Source of the DNA: Pirellula sp.
GTDB lineage: Bacteria > Planctomycetota > Planctomycetia > Pirellulales > Pirellulaceae
Reading direction: 5' to 3'
Length of the DNA stretch: 64,000 bases
Assembly: GCA_021299695.1 (NCBI GenBank)
Contig: JAJTEK010000022.1
Span: 1 to 64,000, forward strand
Shown here: positions 26,645-33,639 of the stretch, piece after piece
Layout of the letters: each line of letters begins with the position of its first letter
Position numbering within the stretch: the first letter of the stretch is position 1
Position numbers and translations under genes: made by a program
Notes under the pieces: generated by a model
The model's input: only the letters and a program-made list of their open reading frames with translations
Databases searched by the model: none
Told to the model about the DNA's origin: nothing

Positions 26645-26998
26645 CTAGCCCCGGTGCTTACGCAGCCATCCGCGTACCATCGCCGTACCTATCGCCACGG
26701 CGATAAAAGGACCCGTCACCCAAATCGACTTCGGTCGATACACAAACAATCCAAGTACCAAAGTGCATGCGATCATCAACATCGTTCCACCTGGTGCCCG
26801 TCGGATGGCTTCAACCGCAGGCCAAGCCAGCCACATGCAGATCAGCACCAACCCCACCTTGCTAAACGTATCGGTCGCCAACCAACGCTGCCCATCCCAT
26901 ATCGCCGGGGCAAACCGCATCGATAGACCCATGCAAAGTAGCACGACTCCAGAGATCAACGCCACCCACCGCGGCAACGGATTCGAGGTTGGATTCAT
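26645..26998 (-). CDS. Small membrane protein, last gene of the HtrA operon
   Basis: About 117 residues with four probable transmembrane segments (about residues 11-29, 42-62, 70-86, 89-107) and a basic C-terminus. I do not recognise the family. Its ATG overlaps the last base of the upstream gene's TGA (TGATG), so it is almost certainly translationally coupled to the HtrA-like protein, suggesting a role with that system at the inner membrane. Confidence 0.65.
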   Translation of the reverse strand: MNPTSNPLPRWVALISGVVLLCMGLSMRFAPAIWDGQRWLATDTFSKVGLVLICMWLAWPAVEAIRRAPGGTMLMIACTLVLGLFVYRPKSIWVTGPFIAVAIGTAMVRGWLRKHRG

Positions 26999-29058
26999 CA
27001 ATAAGCTTCCAACAACCTGAGCCAACGCTGGACGGGCTGGAGCAACGGGGCCTCAACGAGTTTCGATGAGTCCAAATCGCTCCCCTGCCGCTGCACGCTG
27101 TAGCCGTTCTTGCGGATTCTCTCAACAAAGTCATCGACCCCCTTGTCGCTGCTGTTGACAAAGTAACTCGCCGCCTTAAACGGCTCGCTCGGATTGATGC
27201 GTAGCCCCCGAGGGGCCTTGGGGTTGCTCAACCACACCCCGCGAAACAACTCAGGAAATTGAGCGGCTGTGATGTAGGCGAGGATCGTCCCACTATCAAA
27301 TCCACCTACAGCAATCCGCCTGCGATCGATCGAATAAGTCCTTGCAAGCCAAGTTTGCATCCGCATCCCTACCTCGACCTCCTCAAAGCTCCATCCCTTC
27401 TCGTCCGAGGATTGCGCAACGGCGATGATCCAACGATGCTCCCTGGCAAATGGCTCCCAGGCCGAAGCCCACTGCGATTGATCCAACGATCCGGCATCCC
27501 CAAAAAGGACCAGCAGTCCATGAGGTACCTTCCGACTGTAGTTCGACGGTACAATCGCAAACGCCTTGTTCTTCACGTCGCTCATGGGTACCTGAATCGT
27601 TCCAACCTCCGACTTGCCGTCGGCTGGCTCTGCGGCTGACTCTGCGGCAGGATCCTCTGTGGCCGGCTCACTGGCAGCCTCGGGCGCAACTTCAGGCTGA
27701 TAATCCCACTCGAAGTCACCCTCAGGACGTGTCGAAGGATCGAGCTTGATGCGGCTTGCGACCCCAGCCGCATCGCGAACCCCTAGCTCCAAAGCAACCC
27801 GGTAATTCAAGTTCACCAACTGGTTCTCCAAACTCCGTTTTTCGTCGATTCGGACTCCATTGATCGATTCGATCACCCATCCAGATCGCAATCCAGATCC
27901 AGCCGCCGGTGATCCTGGAACGATATAGCTGATCTTTGGGGCATCGGCCGCAGACGCCGGATCGATCAAAATCCCCAAATAAGGCTCCTTGTACAACGGC
28001 ATTTCGCGAGCCAACGTCGCGGTGATCTCCTTGCGATCCGAGCCTCTCTCAACGACCAAAACCAATTGCATCCCCGCATCGAGCGGACCTATCGCATGCT
28101 TGAATTGGGAATGGTTCGCCACAGGCTTGAGATTCGTTGCACTAGGCCCCGCAGCGACAACCTTGTCCCCAATCTCAACCCCACCCTCGGCCGCCGGAGA
28201 GCCAGGCGTGACCCCTTCGATCACCACCGGTTGACTGTACTCGTCCTCTCCCCGCCAACGGATCCCCACCTTGCCCGGGTAGATGTCCTGCCCGGCTTGC
28301 ATCTTAGGCAAACGCTCGAGCACATCGGTTAAAGGAATCGCAAAACCTATCCCCGAGTCGTACCACTGCTCGACCTCTCCCTCGGTGACGATCCCCGGAT
28401 TGATCGGGGTCAAGATACCCATGACCTTGCCTTGCAAATCGATCAGCGGCCCACCATAGTTCTGAGGCGAAATCTTCGTGTCGGTCTGAATGGCCTTGTC
28501 CCAGATGCGTCCCTGAGCGCTGAGAATTCCAGCCGAACAACTCCCGATCGATGGGTCAAAGGTCTTGCCGATCGCTAAAGCCCACTGGCCAATCAGCCAC
28601 CCGGACCGGTCGCTCGGCATGACGGGCCGGATCGGTGCATCGACCTCAATCTTCAACAACGCCAACTCACGGCTAAAGTCGCGCGCTATTAACTTGGCTG
28701 TCTTGCGCTGCTTGTCCGGTAAGACGACGGTGATCGATGCCGGCGGGAACTTGAAATGAAACGTGCTGGTGATGATCCAACCATCGGCCCCGACGATCGT
28801 ACCGGTCGATGGCCCCGAACTGGCCACTTGCCGATTGATCAACTCGGCCCCACCGAACGTCTCGACCTGAACGACCGAATCTTGAACGAATCGAGTCGCG
28901 GACTCAAAAGCCGACTGCTCGAGTTCCTCGAGTCGAAGCGGACTCTGCGCCAGCGATTGCGATCCTAAGAGCGATCCAAAAACGGTCGAACCGAGAAAAC
29001 CAAAGGCCCAAATCCAACGCAAGTACTTCTGTTTCATGCAACTGCTTCTAATCGGCAT
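26998..29058 (-). CDS. HtrA-like pseudoprotease with two PDZ domains and a degenerate alpha/beta-hydrolase domain
   Basis: A 686-residue exported protein: signal peptide (about 1-38), trypsin-like domain (about 45-235), two PDZ domains (about 255-350 and 365-445), an acidic Ala/Glu/Pro-rich linker (about 455-485), and a C-terminal alpha/beta-hydrolase domain (about 490-686). Compared with active HtrA proteins, the His is kept (His101), but the Asp position is Glu131 and the nucleophile Ser of GNSGG is Tyr201 (QNYGGPL). In the hydrolase domain the elbow reads GGFDSG at 585-590, putting Asp588 where the nucleophile should be. It is therefore probably not a protease or esterase but a binding protein. 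The start at 29058 has TAGGAAA upstream. Confidence 0.85.
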   Translation of the reverse strand: MPIRSSCMKQKYLRWIWAFGFLGSTVFGSLLGSQSLAQSPLRLEELEQSAFESATRFVQDSVVQVETFGGAELINRQVASSGPSTGTIVGADGWIITSTFHFKFPPASITVVLPDKQRKTAKLIARDFSRELALLKIEVDAPIRPVMPSDRSGWLIGQWALAIGKTFDPSIGSCSAGILSAQGRIWDKAIQTDTKISPQNYGGPLIDLQGKVMGILTPINPGIVTEGEVEQWYDSGIGFAIPLTDVLERLPKMQAGQDIYPGKVGIRWRGEDEYSQPVVIEGVTPGSPAAEGGVEIGDKVVAAGPSATNLKPVANHSQFKHAIGPLDAGMQLVLVVERGSDRKEITATLAREMPLYKEPYLGILIDPASAADAPKISYIVPGSPAAGSGLRSGWVIESINGVRIDEKRSLENQLVNLNYRVALELGVRDAAGVASRIKLDPSTRPEGDFEWDYQPEVAPEAASEPATEDPAAESAAEPADGKSEVGTIQVPMSDVKNKAFAIVPSNYSRKVPHGLLVLFGDAGSLDQSQWASAWEPFAREHRWIIAVAQSSDEKGWSFEEVEVGMRMQTWLARTYSIDRRRIAVGGFDSGTILAYITAAQFPELFRGVWLSNPKAPRGLRINPSEPFKAASYFVNSSDKGVDDFVERIRKNGYSVQRQGSDLDSSKLVEAPLLQPVQRWLRLLEAY

Positions 29059-29067
29059 CAGTTTTTC

Positions 29068-30126
29068 CTAAGGACGAATTTGCACACGGAGCAGTTCCGT
29101 GCCCCGTTGTACGAGCAATTGAAAAGAATCCCCCCGTTCGATCGTTTGCAGGATTTGTTCGAACGACTTTTGCGAATCGACCCTCTGTTCATTGACCAAC
29201 AAAATCAAATCATTGGCCTCAATCCCTGCACGAGCAGCAAGCGAATCCTTGCGGATCCGATCGATGTACGCCGGTGTCTTTGGAATCACATTGGGAATCA
29301 GAACCATCCCAAGATCCAATGCCCTGTGCGGATTTTTTGCCAACGTAAGCGATGCACCCGCCGAACGGGTTTTACCAGCCAAAATACGCTCGACCGATGC
29401 GGCTGCAACCTCAGTAGGGATGCTGTAATTAAGCCAAATTCCACTCTGCTCGTCTCGCAACTCCTTGCCGATGACTCCGACCAATTGGCCCCCTAAATCC
29501 ACAAGCGCACCACCGGCCGCACCCGGATTGTTGGTCATCACATCCACCACAATCACCTTCCCGCGATAGACCGAACGAAGTCCTGTGTACTTCGACTGCA
29601 AGTCCGACACGGCCATGACTACCCCCTTTTGGTACGAACAAGCTTCGTTGCCCGCTGCGATACCAAAGAGATTGGTGATCGAAAAAACACGCTGACCAGG
29701 CCTGACCTGGGACTTCGCTTCCAAAACAAATCCAGGCAACTTCGAGTTCTCTACCCGCAAAAGGGCTAGTTCGCACTCAGGGTCTACCCCGATCATCTCG
29801 GCGTCGAGTCGTCGTCCATCGTAGGTCACCACACGCACCTTATCGACATCCAAGACCGTCGACCAACTGGTCAAAATCGTGCTGCCGTCTCCGATGACAA
29901 CCCCACTTTGGTAACTCTCGAGTCCGCGCATTCCTCCGGCCCCATAGAGCTTCACAACAGACCGCTGGGCGTTTTGAAACAACTCCTCGAGTCCACTCAA
30001 GCCACCCTGAGAGATCGGTACCTCTGTACTCGGTTTGTCCTCGGCGATTCCCCACCGAGTATCCAATAAGAACACGACGAGGATCGCAGCGAAGAAATTC
30101 CTCAAACGGATTGCCAGATCGATCAT
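29068..30126 (-). CDS. HtrA-like pseudoprotease with one PDZ domain
   Basis: About 352 residues: signal peptide or anchor (1-28), a trypsin-like domain (about 45-250) and one C-terminal PDZ domain (about 265-350). All three catalytic positions are changed: the His site reads TSWSTV (Ser/Thr at 89-90), the Asp site is Glu119 and the Ser site is Ala204 in PGAAGGALVD. It should bind peptides or partners rather than cleave them. Its ATG overlaps the stop of the upstream active HtrA in an ATGA, and the next pseudoprotease starts 9 nt after its stop, so the three are translationally linked. Confidence 0.85.
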   Translation of the reverse strand: MIDLAIRLRNFFAAILVVFLLDTRWGIAEDKPSTEVPISQGGLSGLEELFQNAQRSVVKLYGAGGMRGLESYQSGVVIGDGSTILTSWSTVLDVDKVRVVTYDGRRLDAEMIGVDPECELALLRVENSKLPGFVLEAKSQVRPGQRVFSITNLFGIAAGNEACSYQKGVVMAVSDLQSKYTGLRSVYRGKVIVVDVMTNNPGAAGGALVDLGGQLVGVIGKELRDEQSGIWLNYSIPTEVAAASVERILAGKTRSAGASLTLAKNPHRALDLGMVLIPNVIPKTPAYIDRIRKDSLAARAGIEANDLILLVNEQRVDSQKSFEQILQTIERGDSFQLLVQRGTELLRVQIRP

Positions 30127-31940
30127 GGCTGAGCTCCCGGAACATCCTCGGTCTTTTCGACGGGCAACGTATCGAGCTTGAGCCATTCGACAACCAATCG
30201 AGATTCCAAACCGTAATTCAATCGCACGCGACTGGGCAAGGGCGCCATCGGCGATGCCGCATCGTAGTCGAAATAAACCTCTGCCGGGTCCGTCTGCCGA
30301 TCGGTAAACAACTCGATCAACTCAATGTCACCGCTTGAGAGCGATGTATACACCTCGGCTGTGACCTCCCCCAAAACCACCCTGGTCATGTCGAGCAACC
30401 CTTGCTTGCCCAAGACCGGGCTCTGGCCGATGTAGATGACCTCTCCGAGCTTGCGGGGACCTAGCTCGTGCCATTGATACCAAAGCCTCATCGCGATCGA
30501 GATGGGAAGTGGGTCCTGGTTCTGAATCCAAGGTCCCGAGCTACCTTTGCCCGAGCTACCTTTGACTGTGATCGAGGAAGTCTTGTCGGCCAGTGTCCAG
30601 TGAATTTTCTCTAGATCGAATCGAGCTTCGACCGCCGTGGATTCCCCGAGCACGCTGCCGACAAATCGGACCTGCAACGAGTCGTTAGAACCGTTGGTTG
30701 GCAACGCAGGTTTACGGGACTCCTGGAGCTTGACGATCCGATCGAGCTCCGAACGATTGAAATAGTAATTTCCAAACCCACGTCGCGATTCGTACTTCTC
30801 AGCCAAACTATCCTTAGACGCTTTCGGCTTGGCCTCGCCAGATCGCTTTGCCCCCTGCTCAGAACTCCCCTCAACGATCTTTTCCAACTCTCCAGGTTGA
30901 TGCAAACTCTGAAGTCGTATCGCCGTTTCTTGAACACCCTGCTCGTTGCGATACCGAAGTGCAACTCGCCAGTAATCAGGGAAAATCCCAAGAACATTCT
31001 TCAACTGGTTCGACGTGGATATGTCGCGATCCCCAAGCCTTAGCACTTCGTCTCCATATCGCAGCCCCCGTCGGTAAGCGTCGCTGGACTCAAGAATGTT
31101 CGAAACCACCACTCGACCCTGGGTGTCTGTCGCTACGGTGAAACCTAAGGTCGCATGGTCGACGATCCGTCCGGATCGCAGATTCCCATAGAAGTTCATC
31201 GCTTGCTTGATCGAAATCGCATAACCTACCCCAACATTGACCCGACCTCGCTTCTCAAACGAACATCGACCGTTGATGCCGATCAACTCCCCATCCGCAT
31301 TGAATAACGGTCCACCCGAATTCCCTGGGTTGATCGACGCATCGGTCTGAATGCAGTCGCTATACTCGAGAATCGTTCCCGATGGATACTGGTACCGCCG
31401 AACGCCACTGATGAGCCCATAGGTCAGCGTGGGCTGCAAATTGGTCGCTAAGACAAACGGATTGCCCGCCGCAAAACACCATTGCCCCACACGCACTCGA
31501 TCCGAATCACCGATCGCCGCCGTCGGGAAATCATCCCGGCCATACATCTTCAAAACCGCCAGATCCCCCGTCGGATCAATTCCCGCCACGACTGCCTCGT
31601 ACATCTTGCCGTCGTTCATGCCGCATCGCATGCGGTGCCCAAACGGACTCGAAACGTGAAAGTTCGTCAGCACATAACCATCGGCCGAGATGCACACCCC
31701 GCTCCCGCCCCCCTGACTGTCCATGCCGAAAACCCCGACCGTCGCCATCGATGCCTTGCGCATCGCCTCGACCCGCTTCTGCTGGGCAGCGAGCACCTCA
31801 GGAGCTAACTCGGGTTCCTGCTGCGGCGCCCCAATTGCAAACCCTGCTCCCAAGAGCAAAAAACAAATCGAAGCCATTCGACGTAGACTGGATACGCTCG
31901 CTGGGGTGTTCGCTGGGTTGTTCACTGGCCGGCTAACCAT
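30123..31940 (-). CDS. HtrA-type serine protease with PDZ domain and C-terminal extension
   Basis: About 605 residues; the only intact protease of the trio. After a signal sequence (about 22-38), the protease domain shows TNFHV (His95), PTGDLAVL (Asp126) and NPGNSGGPL (Ser208). One PDZ domain follows (about 275-360), then a charged linker and a C-terminal region of about 220 residues I cannot assign. The linker holds a short duplicated KGSSG. The start is uncertain: ATG at 31940 was chosen, with an ATG at 31877 as an alternative. It is first in the operon and probably a periplasmic quality-control protease. Confidence 0.85.
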   Translation of the reverse strand: MVSRPVNNPANTPASVSSLRRMASICFLLLGAGFAIGAPQQEPELAPEVLAAQQKRVEAMRKASMATVGVFGMDSQGGGSGVCISADGYVLTNFHVSSPFGHRMRCGMNDGKMYEAVVAGIDPTGDLAVLKMYGRDDFPTAAIGDSDRVRVGQWCFAAGNPFVLATNLQPTLTYGLISGVRRYQYPSGTILEYSDCIQTDASINPGNSGGPLFNADGELIGINGRCSFEKRGRVNVGVGYAISIKQAMNFYGNLRSGRIVDHATLGFTVATDTQGRVVVSNILESSDAYRRGLRYGDEVLRLGDRDISTSNQLKNVLGIFPDYWRVALRYRNEQGVQETAIRLQSLHQPGELEKIVEGSSEQGAKRSGEAKPKASKDSLAEKYESRRGFGNYYFNRSELDRIVKLQESRKPALPTNGSNDSLQVRFVGSVLGESTAVEARFDLEKIHWTLADKTSSITVKGSSGKGSSGPWIQNQDPLPISIAMRLWYQWHELGPRKLGEVIYIGQSPVLGKQGLLDMTRVVLGEVTAEVYTSLSSGDIELIELFTDRQTDPAEVYFDYDAASPMAPLPSRVRLNYGLESRLVVEWLKLDTLPVEKTEDVPGAQP

Positions 31941-32097: not shown

Positions 32098-33639
32098 CTA
32101 GTGCGAGCCAGCATCCACATTCTTGGCCTTGTAACCACCCCGGGATCGGAAGTAGAGGAACAAAAGCCCGTAGATCGCAGCCATCGTCAAAGGAACCAAC
32201 GAGGTCAGTCTTAAAGCCTGCCGACCTCCGTAAAGTCCTGCGTCTGTAACGAGTTTTTGATCTTCAGCGGCGGTCTTGGATGCCTCCTGCCACCATGCAG
32301 ATAACTCCTCGTTGTTTTTGTCCGCACGACCCTGGCTCTTGAGAAGCTCCGAGGCCCGTGCCAACTCCTTGCCGCCATCCTCAAGCACTCCTACCTTGGC
32401 TCCATCCAAACCAGTGACCTTGAATCCAAAGAATGAATTCTCTCCCGGAGCTTTGTAACGTTCGTACACCGCAGGACCCGACTGCTTGAGATTCGCCGTC
32501 GCGTTGTAGTCCTGCTTGAACCCAATACCAGGACCACCGAGCAAACCAGCCGACAACATTCCGATGCCACCCAAGGCTCCGATCGTGATCGCTCCACCCT
32601 TAGGGAATTGCTCCGATGCAACAGCGAGCATCGTAGGCCACAGGAACGTCTTTCCTATCGCGTAGACCGTCGCGGCAATCACACATGCAAAGACAGAAGT
32701 CGCCAAACCTAGCATGTTCAAGCCGACGAATCCAAGCAGTGCGCTGACAAACAACAACCCCAGCGGCGAAATTCGATGAACGATCGGTCCGGCAAAAAAA
32801 CGAAGCAAAAACATCAAGGCCGACGTGTACACGAAAAGCAATAGCCCTCGTTGCTTGGACTCCATAATCGTTCCGGTGATCTTCGTGATCCACGAGTCGG
32901 TTCCCAACTCGACGTATCCGACCAATGCATGGACCAACAGCAGCACCAACATCAACGGAGCAAAAACCTGGGTGAACATCTCCACCAAACTCACTCCCGC
33001 TTGGCTCGCCTCAGACCTCGGGAACCTCTGTCCCAAAAGCATCAGGCCATAGAGAACCACAGGCACCAAGAAAAGCGAAATCTGAACCTCCCACGAAATC
33101 GGTTTGCCTCCATCGGGATTCATGAAGTACGAAGCCAATCCACCGACAATCAATCCTCCAGGCCATCCGGCGTGCAGAATGTTCAAGTAGTGGGTCTTGT
33201 TGTTGGGAAACAACGTCGCTACCAACGGATTGACCACCGCTTCTGCAATCCCATTGCCAATCGCAAAAAGGAACATCCCCCAAAACAAACACTGAAATGC
33301 AGCGTCCTTGCCTCCCGAGGCAAACGCATATCCAGCCGCTAATGTCAAAATCGCCGAAACCAAATGCGTTACAAACGCCAAACTCATCAACCGACCATAC
33401 CCCAGCGTGTCGGCCAAGAACGAACTCAACAAAATGATAATCCCAAACCCCGTCAACCCACCTCCAGTGATCTGACCAAGCTCGGTCATCGTAAAACCAA
33501 ACTTCTCAGCCCACTGACTGAGTATCCCAGCCCGGATCGAAAAACCGACCCCGGCTGCAAGAATGGCCATAAAACCTGCCCATAACAATCGCTGGGCATT
33601 GGGGGACGACACCCCGGTCGTTTCGGTCGCTGTACTCAT
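32098..33639 (-). CDS. Major facilitator superfamily transporter with a large soluble insertion
   Basis: A 513-residue MFS permease with about 12 hydrophobic segments, starting at MSTATETTG with a cytoplasmic tail. Most helices are in residues 15-370. Between the penultimate and last helices is a polar insertion of about 100 residues (about 370-475: KQDYNATANLKQS..., then KAPGENSFFGFKV and an acidic/Lys-rich stretch), which is unusual. Substrate is unknown; it could be a sugar or nucleoside proton symporter. It is alone, divergent from the gene at 33974. Confidence 0.85.
   Translation of the reverse strand: MSTATETTGVSSPNAQRLLWAGFMAILAAGVGFSIRAGILSQWAEKFGFTMTELGQITGGGLTGFGIIILLSSFLADTLGYGRLMSLAFVTHLVSAILTLAAGYAFASGGKDAAFQCLFWGMFLFAIGNGIAEAVVNPLVATLFPNNKTHYLNILHAGWPGGLIVGGLASYFMNPDGGKPISWEVQISLFLVPVVLYGLMLLGQRFPRSEASQAGVSLVEMFTQVFAPLMLVLLLVHALVGYVELGTDSWITKITGTIMESKQRGLLLFVYTSALMFLLRFFAGPIVHRISPLGLLFVSALLGFVGLNMLGLATSVFACVIAATVYAIGKTFLWPTMLAVASEQFPKGGAITIGALGGIGMLSAGLLGGPGIGFKQDYNATANLKQSGPAVYERYKAPGENSFFGFKVTGLDGAKVGVLEDGGKELARASELLKSQGRADKNNEELSAWWQEASKTAAEDQKLVTDAGLYGGRQALRLTSLVPLTMAAIYGLLFLYFRSRGGYKAKNVDAGSH

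Follow-up and report, generated by a model that had tools for sequence, protein, structure and literature searches.

The window analysed here is a stretch of 64,000 nucleotides from the genome (5.49 Mb) of a Pirellula species (lineage Planctomycetia, Pirellulales). Four genes form a tight set on its minus strand, the second and third being separated by 9 nt and the other neighbours overlapping. This arrangement, which an earlier note on the window had described, was confirmed from the sequence.

30123..31940, minus strand: gene 1 (605 aa), an active HtrA with an S1C protease domain, a PDZ domain and a C-terminal domain
30123..30126, minus strand: ATGA overlap of the gene 1 stop and the gene 2 start, read from the sequence
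29068..30126, minus strand: gene 2 (352 aa), a pseudo-HtrA with an S1C domain and one PDZ domain
26998..29058, minus strand: gene 3 (686 aa), a pseudo-HtrA with an S1C domain, two PDZ domains and an alpha/beta-hydrolase-like C-terminus
26996..27000, minus strand: TGATG overlap of the gene 3 stop and the gene 4 start, read from the sequence
26645..26998, minus strand: gene 4 (117 aa), a predicted small membrane protein with four hydrophobic stretches by eye

Proteins 1 to 3 share the S1C-then-PDZ architecture of the HtrA/Deg (S1C) protease family. The Pfam Trypsin_2 model was matched above its cut-off by all three (E 1.5e-31, 3.5e-20 and 4.6e-19, respectively), as was the PDZ model by proteins 2 and 3. 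The PDZ domain of protein 1 falls narrowly below the Pfam cut-off (22.9 vs 23.2 bits); its structure model gave a PDZ fold match (Z 12.8, rmsd 1.8, 86 residues). Against the Do-family model protein 1 scored 205.9 bits (cut-off 416.2). The structure model of protein 3, which carries two PDZ domains overlooked in the earlier note, matches HtrA folds (best Z 21.8, rmsd 3.7, 266 residues). All three N-termini look signal-like by eye, from which a periplasmic location may be inferred.

Two further domains had also been overlooked. Protein 1 ends in a domain of about 200 aa without an assigned family, whose predicted model has a pLDDT mostly of 65 to 91 (the protease part is below 50) and an order of helices and strands that may resemble LolA/RseB. 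DUF4292, which we take to be LolA-related, was matched weakly by 5 of 21 members (best E 0.0052). There was no significant PDB profile match to this C-terminal domain, and the structure-search lists for protein 1 were occupied by PDZ-domain matches. In an attempt to gather LolA relatives, PF17131 was found in 0/25 genomes and PF03548 in 2/40.

The C-terminus of protein 3 (about 190 aa, encoded by 26998-27600) is alpha/beta-hydrolase-like, with weak similarity to PHA depolymerases (NF050058, 33.9 bits vs a cut-off of 150). In the window protein, Asp occupies the nucleophile site of the GxSxG motif, so the Ser expected of an alpha/beta hydrolase is missing. A long part after the PDZ region is present in 106 orthologues of protein 3, and the nucleophile Ser is kept in 11 of these and absent from 95. 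The hydrolase-like domain is found in most of Planctomycetia; as the tail is short in all but one of 15 loci sampled across the phylum, it is probably a later addition.

Gene 4 is a genus-level accessory. Its product has no Pfam match above cut-off. Homologues occur in 20 of the 25 genus genomes with a readable downstream side; the 34 loci from other genera of the order have none, and clustering of neighbour families across loci likewise placed it in genus loci only. The suggestion of the earlier note that this membrane protein serves as a general anchor for the HtrA-like proteins is not supported outside the genus.

On the other side of the set, the upstream neighbour in the window (32098-33639) resembles a membrane transporter by reading. 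Across much of the class, a conserved same-strand gene lies immediately 5' of gene 1 (70 loci among L041-L180, six of which are from the genus), at a median distance of -15 nt between the open frames; in L134, the single example scanned, its product carries an NPCBM domain. Two further upstream gene families are present at 50 and 36 loci.

Active sites of the three HtrA-like proteins

Protein 1 has the catalytic triad attributed to it earlier (His95, Asp126 and Ser208), together with the oxyanion-hole Gly206. His, Asp, Gly and Ser are all intact in 120/120 orthologues, counted over those from canonical loci that passed the domain filter; here and below, proteins too truncated for this filter are left out of the active-site counts. 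The oxyanion Gly is counted among the diagnostic residues after the example of a study of MamO (PMC4794232).

The residues reported for protein 2 were likewise correct: Ser89/Thr90 at the His site, Glu119 and Ala204. The His is found at its triad position in none of 123 orthologues, while the Asp is kept in 35 and the Ser in 11. A His one residue downstream, seen in 24/123, is absent from all 11 that retain Ser. The oxyanion Gly (Gly202 in the window) is kept in 123/123.

Protein 3 has Phe100/His101, Glu131, Gln199 and Tyr201 at the corresponding sites. Glu131 and Tyr201 had been read correctly, whereas the statement that His101 is retained does not hold, since this is not a conserved catalytic residue. 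It aligns to the catalytic His only through a one-residue gap, the ungapped site being Phe100, and it is His in just 6/132 orthologues and Asn or Gln in 90. The six orthologues with His101 all have Tyr in place of the catalytic Ser. At position 100, Phe is found in 110/132 and His in 0/132. Tyr stands at the Ser site in 131/132 and the oxyanion Gly is gone, also in 131/132.

A full triad was thus found in 0/123 orthologues of protein 2 and 0/132 of protein 3, where the earlier note had named full-triad homologues as the finding that would count against it. As judged from their sequences, proteins 2 and 3 are pseudo-proteases.

None of the four genes resembles a decaying pseudogene, as comparison of the window with four relatives gave a low dN/dS throughout, indicating purifying selection. 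Values were 0.066 to 0.131 for genes 1 to 3 (0.081 to 0.116 for gene 2 alone) and 0.082 to 0.095 for gene 4; the fourth relative, close to saturation or past it, gives no value for genes 3 and 4. On these values and the conservation across the class, described below, an explanation by chance or decaying duplicates was rejected.

The view that degenerate triads are a habit of the host genome was not supported, six other HtrA rows (L191-L196) keeping the His/Asp/Ser pattern. Of the other host entries, L197 and L203 were only partly mapped, and L198, L200-L202, L204 and L205 gave no row by the HtrA profiles. A separate trypsin-like pair (L199, contig G000:C48) has a weaker member without mapped catalytic residues, and similar pairs of a strong and a weaker match lie at G107:C1:2840220-2841552 and G222:C1:2106617-2107987. 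Four clustered Trypsin_2 matches at G000:C53:5965-12691 (L200) were missed by the HtrA profiles.

Distribution, order and ancestry of the trio

Genes 1 to 3 are class-wide in Planctomycetia and patchy in the rest of the phylum. In a class sample of 118 genomes, with cut-offs chosen where orthologues are widely separated from ordinary HtrAs (for genes 1 and 3 a best E ≤ 1e-60, for gene 2 ≤ 1e-50), all three were found in 86, none in 31 and a weak gene 2 only in one (G217). Genes 1 and 3 were present in an identical set of 86/118; gene 2 was found in all of these and, as a middling match, in G217. The 32 genomes without genes 1 and 3 comprise 29 of family f96, G211 (f99), G052 (f17) and G217 (f98). 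Since other genomes of f17 and f98 carry the trio, this points to loss of the set as a whole. Gene 1 was rechecked in G052, G217, G211 and G254, which gave ordinary HtrA scores only. An initial search among relatives had returned a match in 60/60 genomes, the host's own included; despite this match, G003 (77% complete) and G052 have ordinary HtrA scores only. All 29 sampled genomes of f96 lack genes 1 and 3 and a strong gene 2.

Across the phylum (149 genomes), the gene 3 profile was matched at E ≤ 1e-65 in 27, eight within the class and 19 among the 141 outside it. Of these 19, the eighteen loci L155-L172 are canonical trios and L173 is divergent; among strong gene 3 matches, a canonical trio was thus seen in 18/141 sampled genomes outside the class. 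A phylum-wide trio was rejected, most sampled genomes outside the class being without a strong gene 3. As f96 lacks the trio and most of these genomes lack a strong gene 3, the trio is not indispensable in the phylum.

The genes lie together and in order in 78/86 class genomes by coordinates. Genes 1 and 2 adjoin with gene 3 elsewhere in G291, G280 and G269, and all three are separated in G308, G164 and G146. In G309 genes 1 and 2 are about 6 kb apart, with a stop within the gene 2 match and gene 3 on another contig, and in G038 the trio is cut by contig ends.

Loci were fetched for closer comparison by strong gene 3 matches, spread over families (60 from relatives, 54 from the class, 26 from the phylum and the window, 141 in all). 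Profiles found an S1C domain in 140/141, L065 being a gene 3 tail only. Eight divergent loci (L173-L180) were set aside, leaving 132 canonical loci. Genes 1, 2 and 3 stand in order on one strand in 117 of these, and L165 shows the same order when domain positions replace frame starts. With the two fused loci described below (L162 and L172) and three in which gene 1 is in place and cut by a contig end (L063, L074 and L083), the order live-dead-dead holds in 123/132. Conservation of gene order, whose lack the earlier note had also held to be damaging, is therefore seen both here and in the class genomes. Seven loci are apart with all three genes present (in G040, G291, G308, G164, G280, G269 and G309), and contig ends interrupt L093 and L095. 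From the gene 1 stop to the start of the gene 2 protease-domain model the median distance is 120 nt (≤ 400 nt in 115/117 loci), and by the same measure from gene 2 to gene 3 it is 145 nt (≤ 400 nt in 113/117), leaving scant intergenic room.

Tandem arrays of any size as the norm were also considered and rejected. In a survey of five complete genomes (PF13365 at E up to 1e-6, coordinates read), no run of three other than the trio was seen. There are also four matches in G041 near C1:5605728-5613237, two-match pairs in G107 and G222, and two matches within one frame in G222.

Genes 1 and 2 are fused, joining a live and a dead domain and followed by gene 3, in L162 and L172 only, of 140 loci; two dead domains are fused in L177 and L179. 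In all four fused forms the total of S1C domains per locus stays at three. The divergent loci, a non-random sample taken from weaker gene 3 matches and several of them for having two close matches, have one full-triad domain and two without a triad in 8/8 cases.

In a tree of 150 rows, made by a quick method with SH-aLRT as the only support measure and a midpoint root, genes 1, 2 and 3 each form one clade (SH-aLRT 99, 100 and 99, respectively). The eight live domains of the divergent loci join gene 1 (98) and eight of their dead domains join gene 3 (89), with the remaining eight near the base. A single old trio is the likely origin; the tree is weak in its deepest placements and contains some long branches. 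Extra trios in G044 (L099) and G029 (L100) branch in each of the three subtrees with the distant families f38, f76, f83 and f95, as transfer of a complete set would predict, and this congruence indicates that the three genes moved or were retained together.

Probable assembly and possible working of the trio

HtrA proteases are known as homotrimers, in which each subunit is both sensor and blade. The near all-or-none presence of the trio, the natural fusions and the congruent placement of L099 and L100 support a joint function of the three proteins. Genes 1 to 3 probably encode one periplasmic protease machine, most likely a hetero-oligomer whose basic unit has three S1C domains, only one of them live; the data suggest that the two dead copies serve as integral control or scaffold components of a single complex. 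Because HtrA proteases are trimeric, we infer that one live subunit is joined to two dead ones, and with this physical complex a stoichiometry and an allosteric role. In its strictest form this would be an obligate 1:1:1 heterotrimeric HtrA, found throughout Planctomycetia and scattered beyond, with a single active site and two dead protomers acting as regulatory inputs in trans. This stricter version is tentative, and we would put it at somewhat under an even chance.

Such a hetero-oligomer would replace the usual HtrA homotrimer. The dead subunits, each with its own PDZ domain and loop L2, could receive signals or substrates and so switch or position the single active site. In HtrA/DegP, control runs from one subunit to the next, the sensor loop L3 of the first acting on LD, the activation loop, of the second (accessible text of PMC6172425), and by this relay a dead neighbour could feed the live subunit in a mixed trimer. 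In the strict 1:1:1 case, a symmetric protease with three active sites would have evolved into an asymmetric machine in which sensing falls to dedicated subunits.

Several observations touch on subunit contacts. By reading, each of the three families has its own conserved stretch around loop L2, as expected if the three proteins touch different partners. Position 146 of protein 2 is presumably equivalent to the trimer-contact residue Phe256 of HtrA2. At this site, with the equivalence made by reading, protein 2 has Arg in 68/123 orthologues and Trp is found in 88/120 of protein 1 and 112/132 of protein 3. Mutual information over 120 paired loci gave a top-20 mean exceeding that of global shuffles, with relatedness uncontrolled and some shuffles reaching the highest single z; for a within-clade control, clustering put 119 of the 120 loci in one group. 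Arg146 of protein 2 goes with Glu47 of protein 3 in 62/65 cases and other residues at 146 with Glu47 in 4/55, relatedness again being uncontrolled. Glu47 belongs to the N-terminal segment of protein 3; the pair, picked after the fact, is suggestive of a contact at most.

Operon structure, co-loss and fusion also fit cooperation without mixed trimers. Live and dead homotrimers could be stacked into a cage of the Deg5/Deg8 or Deg7 type, the dead layers forming substrate-binding or gating rings. The S1C-then-PDZ order kept in each protein suits this arrangement, and it has precedents, in that Deg5/Deg8 hetero-oligomers are assembled from homotrimers (PMC4877387, accessible part) and the inactive domain of Deg7 takes part in trimerization (PMC3473262, accessible part), a point that counts for the mixed complex as well. 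As the live-plus-dead chain of AtDeg7 itself trimerizes and AtDeg5/AtDeg8 are built from homotrimers, the fusions leave a 1:1:1 unit unfixed. Stacking, however, does not require that S1C domains stay at three per locus, fused forms included, and it sits poorly with a Phe256-equivalent site that is often Arg in protein 2 and mostly Trp in proteins 1 and 3; we regard it as rather unlikely.

An unlikely reading, too, is that the dead proteins work on their own in the periplasm as scaffolds or chaperones that bind peptides, handing substrates to the protease or recruiting other factors without entering mixed oligomers. PDZ domains in all three proteins, the extra and mostly dead hydrolase-like domain of protein 3 and the fact that MamO has activities apart from any mixed protease trimer (PMC4794232, accessible text) would agree with such adaptors, but the joining of protease domains in one chain by fusions and the near-strict three-way co-occurrence argue against them. 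It is more improbable by far that proteins 2 and 3 were repurposed for metal binding or other chemistry, sharing only a pathway with protein 1. The di-histidine metal-binding motif of MamO (same source) is a precedent for this, and the oxyanion Gly kept in every protein 2 orthologue means that the old cleft may still bind something; the Tyr at the Ser site and the loss of the Gly in protein 3, on the other hand, make a kept catalytic cleft less likely.

Separating the roles of sensor and blade is hard in homotrimers. If the preferred reading of one live and two dead subunits in one complex is true, a natural one-of-three cutting system would let each HtrA input be mutated separately, and the trio would be a widely conserved bacterial pseudo-protease set. 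It would also give access to a seemingly unstudied part of planctomycete envelope quality control, testable in culturable members of the class.

Comparison with known HtrA systems

The earlier note knew of no described system of this composition. For the threefold form this stands: a literature search, with subscription papers and preprints outside its scope, found no description of an HtrA trio of one live and two dead members. The accessible text of a bacterial PDZ survey reports many PDZ proteins in planctomycetes and does not cover active sites (PMC6411480), and the main text of the Planctopirus essential-gene paper makes no mention of HtrA, DegP or trypsin (PMC10632474). The statement is too broad in one respect, since the pairing of a live with a dead HtrA is known from MamE and MamO (PMC4794232, accessible text). 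The new aspect, as far as this search reached, is thus the conserved set of one live and two dead proteins.

MamE and MamO are, as here, an active HtrA and an inactive HtrA-like protein that are encoded together. According to the accessible text of PMC4794232, MamE-dependent proteolysis needs the presence of MamO and not its triad, and inactive HtrA copies arose independently in three clades of magnetotactic bacteria. The protease domain of MamO alone fails to activate MamE and its TauE domain is required (same source), a warning that the effect of a dead partner may depend on domains other than the protease. In contrast to the trio, this system has two proteins and a magnetosome function, and MamO has a TauE transporter domain to which proteins 2 and 3 have no Pfam match. 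The NCBIfam models for MamE and MamO were matched far below cut-off, the best scores (104/800 bits and 54.8/800 bits, respectively) both being those of protein 1.

Plant Deg7, of clade III, resembles the trio in bringing live and degenerate protease domains into one assembly, the dead one being engaged in trimerization (PMC3473262, accessible part). It differs in being one chain with four PDZ domains, whereas here the genes are separate and fused only in a few distant relatives. Plant Deg5/Deg8 is likewise a hetero-oligomer of HtrA paralogues (accessible part of PMC4877387), as the planctomycete complex would be. It has two partners, however, and is built from homotrimers, and both structures show a rotated catalytic His while the triads are not lost (same source).

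Proteins of the DegP/DegQ/DegS type share the S1C-PDZ architecture of the trio. They are homotrimers made from one gene, with all subunits live, and where this type has its second PDZ domain protein 1 has its extra C-terminal domain.
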